Shown piece by piece: positions 5,908-32,907 of a DNA stretch of 42,774 bases. The stretch's first letter is position 1; the number at the start of each line of letters is the position of its first letter. Origin of the DNA: Nitrospirota bacterium (GTDB taxonomy: Bacteria; Nitrospirota; Thermodesulfovibrionia; Thermodesulfovibrionales; SM23-35); the NCBI GenBank assembly GCA_013388605.1, contig JACAEY010000091.1, positions 1 through 42,774 of the forward strand, read 5' to 3'. Below the pieces are notes generated by a model, which searched no databases, had not been told where the DNA came from, and saw only the letters and a program-made list of their open reading frames with translations. Both the position numbers and the translations under genes were made by a program.

Positions 5908-5952
5908 ATTTAAATTATACCCTTAACCATCCTTTATCAAAATGATAAGGTA

Positions 5953-6123
5953 ATAAGTCTGTATACCTCATAAACTCAATGAATCGACAGGATAATTGTA
6001 TCGCAGACCCTTTCTGTTAAAGATGATATCTGGTTAACGTTCATATATCCTTCTTTGGAATCAGGATGTGGATGAATTTTCTAAGATGCCGTCATTGTAT
6101 TTCTCATATTTTAGTGTATATGG
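5953..6123 (+). repeat. Dispersed MITE-like repeat, copy A
   Basis: Aligns along most of its length with 31651-31834, e.g. ATACCTCATAAAC.CAATGAAT.GACAGGATAATTGTAT and CTTTCTGTTAAAG..TGATATC; right end degraded. Confidence 0.85.
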
Positions 6124-6409
6124 ATAATAATGATCATAAAACATGTATGAAAACCTAAATATCAGGCTTACTCCAATTTACTTAGTAAAATTGATCCAAA
6201 ATTAAATTGCATAATCTTACCAAATTTTTTTTAAAAGTAACAGATAAAATATTCTAAAATAGCAAGTAAAAAGTCTTTAAATTTTGGTATAAGATTTGAT
6301 CTTTAAATAGAAATTTATAATCGTAAATTTTAAAAATTTAATAACTAAAAATTTCTCAGTTCATTATAATACCATTATTCATTCGCGGGTTCTCCTTTAT
6401 AAGGTTATT

Positions 6410-6676
6410 ATGGAAAAAAAAGAATTGCTTTCAGAAGCAATAAATTCTTGTTCAATATATGAATTCCTTGAAGAAAAGCTCAAGCGGTATCTAAAAAAAC
6501 TCACAAAGCTTGAACACTCAAACCTCTATGAGTCAGTCATATCCGAGGTTGAAAAATCATTGATCTCAATAGTTCTTAAAGAAACTGAAGGGAACCAGCT
6601 CAAGGCAGCAAAAACACTTGGAATAAATCGTAATACATTAAGATCAAAGATTAAAGCATATAAAATTAAAATATAA
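6410..6676 (+). CDS. Fis-family helix-turn-helix protein
   Basis: C-terminal 'LISIVLKETEGNQLKAAKTLGINRNTLRSKIKAYKI' is a Fis/NtrC-type HTH. Confidence 0.85.
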   Translation: MEKKELLSEAINSCSIYEFLEEKLKRYLKKLTKLEHSNLYESVISEVEKSLISIVLKETEGNQLKAAKTLGINRNTLRSKIKAYKIKI

Positions 6677-19516: not shown

Positions 19517-19596
19517 GGTCTTTATATGTTATTCTATCATTAGTTTTTATGTTAAATTTATATATGACTCACACTTATCCAAAATAATAAAGGCAA

Positions 19597-19676
19597 TTTG
19601 GAAGGATGTGGATTAATTTTATAAGTTGTCGTCATTGTGTTTCTTCGGCATCCATCCATATTTCAGAGTATTTTGG
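19597..19676 (+). repeat. Dispersed MITE-like repeat, copy B (5'-truncated)
   Basis: GGATGTGGATTAATTTTAT.AG.T.GTCGTCATTGTGTTTCTTCG.CATCCA.CCATATTTCAGA.TAT.TTGGA shared with 31762-31834. Confidence 0.85.
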
Positions 19677-19688
19677 ACTGCAATAATT

Positions 19689-20141
19689 ATGACAAAAAAA
19701 ATAATAGCAGTTATTGGAGCTGGCATAGCAGATAAAACAACGTTTAAAATTGCTGAAGATGCAGGAAGACTTATTGCCAAAAAGGGAGCTCTTTTAATCT
19801 GTGGGGGTCTTGGTGGTGTTATGGAAGGTGCTTCAAAGGGTGCTCACATGGAAGGAGGAATTACTATAGGGATATTACCTCACAATCATGTAAAAGATGC
19901 GAACCCCTTTATCGATATCCCTATTGCTACAGGCTTAGGAGAAGGAAGAAATGTGGTTATAGCCAGGTCTGCAGATGCCATTATTGCGATCGGTGGAGAA
20001 TATGGAACACTTTCTGAAATAGCCTTTGGTCTGAAAATGAAAAAACCAGTAATAGGAATAGATACATGGGATATAAAAGGTATTATAAAGGCAGAAAGTG
20101 CTGAAGATGCAGTAAAAAAAGCCTTTGAAATTATTTCATAG
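19689..20141 (+). CDS. TIGR00725 family LOG-like protein
   Basis: 'GALLICGGLGGVMEGASKGAHMEGGITIGILP', 'GEYGTLSEIAFGLK'. ORF track start at 19626 lies in repeat copy B; ATG at 19689 is more likely. Confidence 0.9.
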   Translation: MTKKIIAVIGAGIADKTTFKIAEDAGRLIAKKGALLICGGLGGVMEGASKGAHMEGGITIGILPHNHVKDANPFIDIPIATGLGEGRNVVIARSADAIIAIGGEYGTLSEIAFGLKMKKPVIGIDTWDIKGIIKAESAEDAVKKAFEIIS

Positions 20142-31031: not shown

Positions 31032-31616
31032 ATGATCGGCTCATTGAGAGGAAAAATTATATTAAAAAAGCCTGATTCGGTGATTATCGAGGTTAATGGT
31101 GTAGGTTATCAGGTAAATGTTCCTTTCAGTATTCTTTCGAACCTTCCAGAAGAAGGTAAGGAAGTTTTCCTATATGTCTATACTCATATACGTGAAGATG
31201 TTCTCCAGCTTTATGGTTTTACAACCGAAGATGAGAAAAAGGTCTTCCTAACCCTTCTTGGCATTACAGGTATCGGACCTAAGATGGCTCTTAATATACT
31301 TTCGGGAATTTCTCACAATGACCTCCTTCATGCGATAGAGGAAGAAGATCTTGCAATGTTGTGCAGGATCCCAGGTCTTGGCAAGAAAACTGCCCATAGG
31401 TTGATTCTTGAACTTAGGGAAAAGCTCCCTGCAAGGATTATGAAAGACAGGGTGTTTGAAGATGCACTATCGGCTCTTATAAATCTTGGATATAAAAAAT
31501 CGATTGCTCAGGAGTCCCTTGAGAAAGCATATAGAAATCTGGAAGCAGGTGGACACAATGATATTGAGAAACTACTTAAGGAGTCATTAAAATATTTAAC
31601 AATCGATCAAGATTGA
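31032..31616 (+). CDS. ruvA: Holliday junction branch migration protein RuvA
   Basis: 'MIGSLRGKIILKKPDSVIIEVNGVGYQVNVP', 'LLGITGIGPKMALNIL', 'RIPGLGKKTAHRLILELREKL'. Confidence 0.97.
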   Translation: MIGSLRGKIILKKPDSVIIEVNGVGYQVNVPFSILSNLPEEGKEVFLYVYTHIREDVLQLYGFTTEDEKKVFLTLLGITGIGPKMALNILSGISHNDLLHAIEEEDLAMLCRIPGLGKKTAHRLILELREKLPARIMKDRVFEDALSALINLGYKKSIAQESLEKAYRNLEAGGHNDIEKLLKESLKYLTIDQD

Positions 31617-31650
31617 TAGGATATCAGACATGTCCATAATAAAAGATACA

Positions 31651-31834
31651 ATATGGCTGGATACCTCATAAACACAATGAATAGACAGGATAATTGTATG
31701 ACAGACCTCTTTCTGTTAAAGTATGATATCAGGATTACGCTTATATATCCTTTCTGGGAAGAGGATGTGGATTAATTTTATGAGGTCGTCATTGTGTTTC
31801 TTCGACATCCAGCCATATTTCAGAATATCTTGGA
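31651..31834 (+). repeat. Dispersed MITE-like repeat, copy C (reference copy)
   Basis: Core 31651-31818 bounded by ATATGGCTGGAT (31651-31662)/ATCCAGCCATAT (31807-31818); second arm pair AAACACAATGA (31670-31680)/TCATTGTGTTT (31789-31799). Confidence 0.9.
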
Positions 31835-31854
31835 AGAAATGATAGGTAATGTAA

Positions 31855-32907
31855 ATGAAGAAAACAGATAATCATACCAGACGATCAGAAAAAAGTTTTG
31901 TAGTAAATAGAACAATTAATCCAGTTGTTTCTCAGGAAGAGTTCGCTTATGAAATGACTTTAAGACCGAGGTCATTTGATGAGTTTATTGGACAGGATAA
32001 GATTAAGGATAATCTAAAGATATTTATAGAGGCTGCAGAGAAAAGAAAAGATCCTCTTGACCATGTGCTTTTCTGTGGACCACCAGGTCTTGGAAAGACA
32101 ACCCTTGCACATATAATAGCTACTGAGTTAAAGGTTAATATAAAGACGACGTCAGGACCGGTATTAGAAAGACCCGGTGACCTTGCTGCGATCCTTACAA
32201 ATCTTTCTGAACTCGATATCCTGTTTATAGATGAGATTCATAGGTTACCAAGAATAGTTGAAGAAATTCTTTATCCTGCAATGGAGGATTATCAACTTGA
32301 CATTATTATAGGACAAGGTCCAAGTGCAAGGACACTTAAGTTGAATCTACCTAAATTTACACTGATTGGTGCTACTACGAGGACAGGATTACTTACATCT
32401 CCTTTAAGAGAACGTTTTGGTGTGATAAGCAGGCTTGAATTCTATTCTCCTGAGGAGCTTAAAAATATTGTTTTGCGTTCATCCATGATACTCAAGACAG
32501 ATATTGATGATGATGCTGCCTTTGAAATAGCACGGCGTTCAAGAGGAACTCCAAGAATAGCAAACAGGCTTTTACGCCGAATAAGGGACTTTGCACAGGT
32601 CAAAGGTGATGGAAGGATTGACCTTAAAATAACAAAGAGCTCCCTCCTTTCACTCGATGTAGACGAGAAGGGTCTTGATGAGATGGATAGAAGACTCCTT
32701 CTTACAATAATCGAAAAATACAATGGTGGTCCTGTTGGAATTGAAACGTTAGCAGCCTCTTTGAGAGAAGATAAAGAGACTTTAGAAGATGTATATGAGC
32801 CCTTTTTATTACAGGAGGGTTTACTTGATAGAACACCTCGTGGCAGACTTGCAACAAAGATTGCCTATCAACACTTCAGAATGGATACTCCTAAGGGGCT
32901 GTTTTGA
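31855..32907 (+). CDS. ruvB: Holliday junction branch migration helicase RuvB
   Basis: '[26 protein letters not shown]', '[18 protein letters not shown]', 'LFIDEIHRL', '[20 protein letters not shown]'. Confidence 0.98.

Follow-up and report, generated by a model that had tools for sequence, protein, structure and literature searches.

A probable non-autonomous IS4-type element of Thermodesulfovibrionales with a pairing-conserved subterminal inverted repeat

Three similar segments lie dispersed in a stretch of 42,774 nucleotides from a Nitrospirota bacterium (contig JACAEY010000091.1; here, the window), and the question they raise is whether they are copies of a small mobile element or of a structured RNA or regulatory repeat. 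The original prediction, made from the letters of the window, left room for both. The best explanation, to which we give a probability of about 0.87, is that this repeat, termed alpha, is a non-autonomous MITE of Thermodesulfovibrionales that is mobilised in trans by an IS4-type transposase and carries a subterminal inverted repeat whose pairing is conserved.

The three-copy observation proves to be real, and the copies are related. They align with one another, all on the plus strand of the window, and a 26-bp core has two matches in the window versus none in 100 shuffles. The boundaries first drawn for them do not stand. When full copies are aligned together with their flanks, the limits shift outward to ends of the form 5'-CA...TG-3', of the CATACTTGTCCAAAATA type; alpha starts with CATACTTGTCCAAAATAAKAGACACAC, runs to TATGGCTGGATACCTCATAAACACAATGA and finishes with TCATTGTGTTTCTTYGGCATCCAGCCATATTTYAGAATATCTTGGACAGCWATG, and full copies have terminal inverted repeats CATACTTGTCCAAAATA / TATYTTGGACAGCWATG. 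Copy C had been placed at 31651-31834, and position 31834 lies inside the element. Because copy C spans 31625-31841, the 12-bp pair ATATGGCTGGAT/ATCCAGCCATAT that was taken for its termini is present but subterminal, about 30 bp inside the true ends. Copy A, given as 5953-6123, is likewise extended, and copy B, described as truncated (19597-19676), has lost internal sequence but keeps both ends, since its left end CACACTTATCCAAAATAATAAAGGCA is present at 19570. The features are as follows.

5928..6132 (approximate), plus strand: degenerate copy A of the alpha MITE, with an ORF downstream at 6410
19570..19685, plus strand: copy B of the alpha MITE, with an internal deletion and both ends retained
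31032..31616, plus strand: ruvA, upstream neighbour of copy C (TIGR00084, E 1.7e-60)
31616..31624, no strand: left target-site duplication ATAGGATAT, 7/9 identical to 31842-31850
31625..31841, plus strand: complete copy C of the alpha MITE, 217 bp long, in the ruvA-ruvB interval (limits set by alignment to other copies)
31655..31665, plus strand: P1 left arm GGCTGGATACC, pairs with 31804-31814; 7 of 11 pairs changed on both sides
31670..31680, plus strand: P2 left arm AAACACAATGA, 99.5% paired in 21 sequences, both-side changes in four pairs
31789..31799, plus strand: P2 right arm TCATTGTGTTT, pairing and covariation with 31670-31680
31804..31814, plus strand: P1 right arm GACATCCAGCC, pairing and covariation with 31655-31665
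31842..31850, no strand: right target-site duplication ATAGGTAAT, just 5' of the ruvB ATG at 31855
31855..32907, plus strand: ruvB, downstream neighbour of copy C (NF000868, E 3.7e-157)

A covariance model matches copy C at 31655-31814 (E 1e-25) and copy A at 5957-6116 (E 6.4e-12). The description of all three copies as intergenic holds for C and A. The stop codon of ruvA ends on the first base of ATAGGATAT (31616); the right 9-bp flank of copy B (19686-19694) takes in the ATG of the next gene at 19689. The flanks of copy B, TATATGACT/ATTATGACA, are identical at 6 of 9 positions, with TATGAC common to both, and copy A has no clear duplication (5/9). Judged by these flanks and the 7/9 of copy C, the window copies are old. 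No coding capacity is seen in the repeat, as had been stated.

Evidence for mobility comes from copy number, target-site duplications and an empty site. The genome that contains the window is a MAG of 1,675,093 bases (1.68 Mb) in 156 contigs. A search of it with 31651-31834 returned at least 39 BLAST matches, with E down to 1.8e-92, a lower bound on the copy number of alpha, as 40 of the 55 first-look candidates were scored. Alpha is thus dispersed in its genome as a unit of about 220 bp that lacks a transposase gene; seven matches to copy C, the query itself excluded, are near full length at 86-92% identity, and several lie at contig ends. The common orientation reported for the three window copies does not extend to every copy in the genome.

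Once the ends are set at CA...TG, the 9-bp flanks of 29 copies from several genomes are 72.4% identical. Shuffling the right flanks among copies gives a mean of 34.9% and a maximum of 53.3% in 2000 shuffles, and flank lengths of 3-8, 10 and 11 give only 28-37%. In 15 of these 29 copies at least 8 of the 9 positions agree. An 8-bp register was rejected; it counts the same duplication one base short, because the end had been placed one base further out. The site of copy C, to which the empty-site comparison applies, is uninterrupted in relatives: the ruvA-ruvB junction is without an insertion in the 13 nearest relatives in which it is readable (L184-L196). Internal-deletion derivatives like copy B occur elsewhere in the genome (L012, L024, L027, L030), and two of them, L012 and L024, keep both ends and have duplications identical at 9/9.

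Alpha extends beyond this genome. BLAST finds homologues in 11 of 100 genomes, its own included, and their interiors can be aligned between genera and between families of the order. When 85,462 species genomes were scanned with a degenerate 25-mer from the right core, 24 contigs matched, 23 of them titled Nitrospirae, Nitrospiraceae or Thermodesulfovibrionales and the remaining one 'Bacterium BMS3Bbin05'. With covariance model R1 and a cut-off of E<=0.001, 45 of the 178 genomes sampled from the order gave matches, an upper figure for alpha that includes the gamma repeats discussed below. Four genomes (G046, G087, G036 and G163) hold lineage-specific sets of similar copies, which suggests repeated amplification.

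A transposase with matching termini, which the original prediction had proposed to look for, was found in related genomes of the same order; it is of the IS4 family, with DUF4372 and DDE_Tnp_1 domains. In one relative (G056, locus L041) the right end of alpha is found on an insertion sequence that has decayed and whose transposase is IS4-like; the alpha end CATAGCTGTCCAAGATATTCTAAAA and the insertion sequence end CACTGCTGTCCAAGATATTCTAAAA are identical at 22 of 25 positions. Another relative, G030, has two copies (L146 and L153) of an IS4-family transposase of 388-402 aa between CACATCTGTCCAAAATAAT and CACTGCTGTCCAAAATAAT. The L146 insertion sequence is 1.4 kb long, encodes a 388-aa transposase (NF033592, E 3.9e-83; PF14294 + PF01609) and is flanked on either side by the 9-bp repeat ATTTAAAAT. 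Its left end is the same over 19 bp as the right end of beta, a sister family to which 166 CTGTCCAARATA sites (at most one mismatch) in the window's genome led. Beta has the same IS4-type ends and duplications as alpha and a different interior; it is about 235 bp long, with at least about 40 copies, a lower bound from 40 of 115 candidates scored. Most of its copies share 92-97% identity, many sit at contig ends, and beta is younger than alpha.

In the IS4 subgroup IS4Sa the ends are CA------T and direct repeats measure 8-10 bp (PMC2266710, Table 1). Alpha has ends CA......T and a 9-bp duplication, within that range, and by ends and duplication IS4Sa would be its nearest subgroup. The Y(2)R(3)E(6)K motif of the IS4 family can be read in the candidate transposase. 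Unlike IS4 insertion sequences, alpha encodes no transposase. Family searches detected DUF4372 (PF14294) in 20 of 100 relatives and no IS4/DUF4372 transposase in the window's own genome, and we therefore infer from the relatives that an IS4-type enzyme is the mobiliser of alpha. Since the only DDE_Tnp_1 match in the own genome is an IS1634-family gene, that enzyme has probably been lost or is absent from the assembly. An autonomous copy between distant CTGTCCAAAATA ends was considered on two contigs and rejected: on C152 two beta MITEs surround a gene, and on C96 an IS1634 gene lies by beta.

Many copies, duplications, an empty site, IS4-matching ends in relatives and the lack of a matching Rfam family together support the reading of alpha as a non-autonomous element. 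An IS4-family DDE transposase (DUF4372 + DDE_Tnp_1) would recognise CATACTTGTCCAAAATA-type ends in trans, and cut-and-paste movement would leave the observed 9-bp duplication. Between the ends, the subterminal inverted repeat P1-(TCAT/MTTC loop)-P2-(AT bulge)-P3 surrounds a variable middle. Within operons such as ruvA-ruvB, alpha would be transcribed together with the genes, and its transcript would form a long hairpin that may alter the processing or stability of the message.

Transposase ends alone leave the conserved interior unexplained. Its plan is P1 (GGCTGGATGCC/GGCATCCAGCC), the TCAT/MTTC loop, P2 (AAACACAATGA/TCATTGTGTTT), a 2-nt AT bulge, P3 (CGACA/TGTCG) and the variable middle. All the arm pairs that had been listed for copy C, including ACCTCATAAA/TTTATGAGGT, are found in its sequence. 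The AAACACAATGA/TCATTGTGTTT arm is present as described, and the stem runs further inward past the bulge through CGACA/TGTCG; ACCTCATAAA/TTTATGAGGT crosses this stem, so that the two are mutually exclusive. The stems covary, and none of 500 shuffles equals the whole structure in pairing or in covariation. When 78 copies of alpha and gamma are taken together, 96.5% of P2 pairs are Watson-Crick, and the same positions hold A-T, T-A, C-G and sometimes G-C. Because pairing is kept while P2 and the outer arms change in sequence, symmetry or hairpin formation seems to be maintained, either by selection or by hairpin-templated correction in replication.

The cause of this covariation may be mechanical and lie in the DNA itself: where a long quasi-palindrome is replicated, template switching would copy one arm onto the other, with no need for selection on an RNA. 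This explanation is a serious one, at somewhat less than even odds, and it concerns the cause of covariation only, being compatible with the MITE reading. It accords with two-sided changes that almost always give Watson-Crick pairs, wobble intermediates being few, and with the outer arms of gamma, which vary by locus yet remain complementary (4.86 of 6 positions versus 3.08 when permuted). It also accords with two loci, L037 (G070) and L039 (G060), where an upstream gene supplies the left outer arm with its end, and the right arm repeats that end in inverted form; the palindrome looks as though it grew by copying its flank. Template switching fails to explain the strong conservation of unpaired parts, namely the TCAT/MTTC loop, the AT bulge, CGACAG and AAGGTGTCG.

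Those asymmetric unpaired parts, together with the covarying stems, are what a functional structured RNA would display, and the core might be a mobile 5' UTR or an sRNA-like module kept for its RNA function inside IS4-type ends. We consider this unlikely. The original prediction also allowed for a structured RNA or regulatory repeat; the stems do covary, but the wobble pairs show no sign of strand-specific selection on RNA. In P2, G.U and A.C are rare and equal (6 each of 751 cells in the 78 copies), and in P1, A.C (115) exceeds G.U (22), the opposite of what selection on a plus-strand RNA would leave; with G.U and A.C balanced in P2 and P1 rich in A.C, there is no sign of such selection. Wobble that is rare and strand-symmetric speaks for symmetry at the level of DNA or for templating by the hairpin, not for a proven RNA. 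Copies fold with z-scores of -3.3 to -7.2 against shuffles, which favours an RNA but is expected of any such palindrome, and the two strands fold about equally well. No known Rfam family matches: the window gives only a tRNA, ten related loci give tRNA and below-cut-off matches only (E up to 10), and a known Rfam RNA was rejected for want of a covariance-model match above the gathering score.

The orientation of alpha relative to genes also favours an RNA. In the own genome, 12 copies between co-directional genes run with the genes and 2 against, with 10 divergent and 0 convergent sites. Beta, as a control, has 3 with, 5 against and 2 convergent (Fisher p=0.052 for alpha versus beta). In relatives the alpha ratio is 17:8, and 7 insertions lie between convergent genes, which argues against an RNA role. 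Over all alpha copies the ratio is 29:10 (p=0.003), a bias that is suggestive only, because the gene calls came from a simple ORF rule and the copies are related, so that tests on them are non-independent. A conserved outward promoter was considered and rejected: there are 7 promoter-like sites versus 2.0 expected, but by eye the right-end hexamers are not kept across relatives. No intrinsic terminator was found in the region examined.

A further point in favour of an RNA is that gamma has the same core without IS4 ends. These repeats of about 140 nt, picked up by the alpha covariance model in several families of the order (loci L231-L266, e.g. L235:1501-1642 and L249:2049-2190), follow the plan of alpha, TCA-P2-AT-CGACAG...AAGGTGTCG-P2'-TTC, with a P2 wholly unlike that of alpha (AATTTTTATA/TATAAAAATT) and without the CTGTCCAAAATA ends. 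Target-site duplications give no convincing peak over the flank lengths compared, and palindromic target choice was considered for the immediate flanks, whose complementarity is specific to each locus. One gamma copy, at L233 (G100:C4), is bracketed by direct repeats AAGACCCCTTAAA. It is conceivable, though rather improbable, that what lasts is the core (P1/P2/P3, CGACAG and AAGGTGTCG) rather than the ends, and that the core is a structured SINE-like hairpin module with a function of its own. On the same doubtful reading, that module would have spread through the order on at least two sets of transposon ends, IS4-type in alpha and another, not of that type, in gamma.

That the copies are ordinary decayed remnants of insertion sequences, with no common interior and similar by chance, can be dismissed: their ends do match an IS4-type insertion sequence, but the interior is conserved across genera and families and was not seen in the insertion sequences read.

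Read as a MITE, alpha resembles the bacterial IS-derived MITEs reviewed in PMC10969869, among them QMITE2 of Coxiella (duplication 7-9 bp, inverted repeats 23-29 bp). It is shorter than 300 bp, AT-rich and intergenic, with terminal inverted repeats, short duplications, a transcript predicted to fold and, presumably, mobilisation in trans by an insertion sequence. It differs from typical MITEs in that its interior is conserved among many genera within a single order and its subterminal stems covary. The text of that review does not mention IS4 or Nitrospirota. BOX and RUP of Streptococcus pneumoniae are also interspersed, with IS-like inverted repeats, duplications, tight folds with paired termini and nesting in one another, but they are over-represented between convergent genes and alpha is not; BOX is modular, unlike alpha, and neither has a visible sequence relation to it (PMC3049150). 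ERIC and the Correia (NEMIS) elements are likewise small intergenic inverted-repeat elements (PMC2229807, PMC10969869), and Correia hairpins are cut by RNase III in mRNA (PMC2229807, PMC10969869). They occur in other hosts and are likened here by description. No earlier description of alpha was found among the open-access papers searched, with only part of the search aimed at Nitrospirota.

Alpha is thus a new IS4-type MITE family of a familiar kind, unusual for an inner hairpin that keeps its shape, not its letters, across an order. It documents such a family with homologues across an order of Nitrospirota, and its copies form a series over many genomes that lends itself to measuring the concerted evolution of inverted-repeat arms. 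If the core is selected for structure, alpha would be a non-autonomous element that outlives and swaps its transposon ends.

On three contigs of the window's genome (C32, C128 and C2) a REP-like repeat, with CCCGTATTACGCAAGG...CCTTGCGTAATTCGGG and GCAGGCTRAAGCCTGC cores, is nested in alpha, each time at the same GTTAAA (loci L016/L028, L018/L022 and L023, respectively). On C32 the composite is flanked by a duplication of its own, CATATTCAT/CATATTTAT (8/9, by eye), and so seems to have moved as a single unit. An apparently intact 606-aa IS1634-family transposase lies at C96:2300-4120 (L131:1291-3111), with a beta MITE about 59 bp 5' of its start. Examples of beta occur on contigs C13, C145, C50, C39, C112 and others of this genome and at L093:1488-1738, and many contigs of the assembly end in beta.
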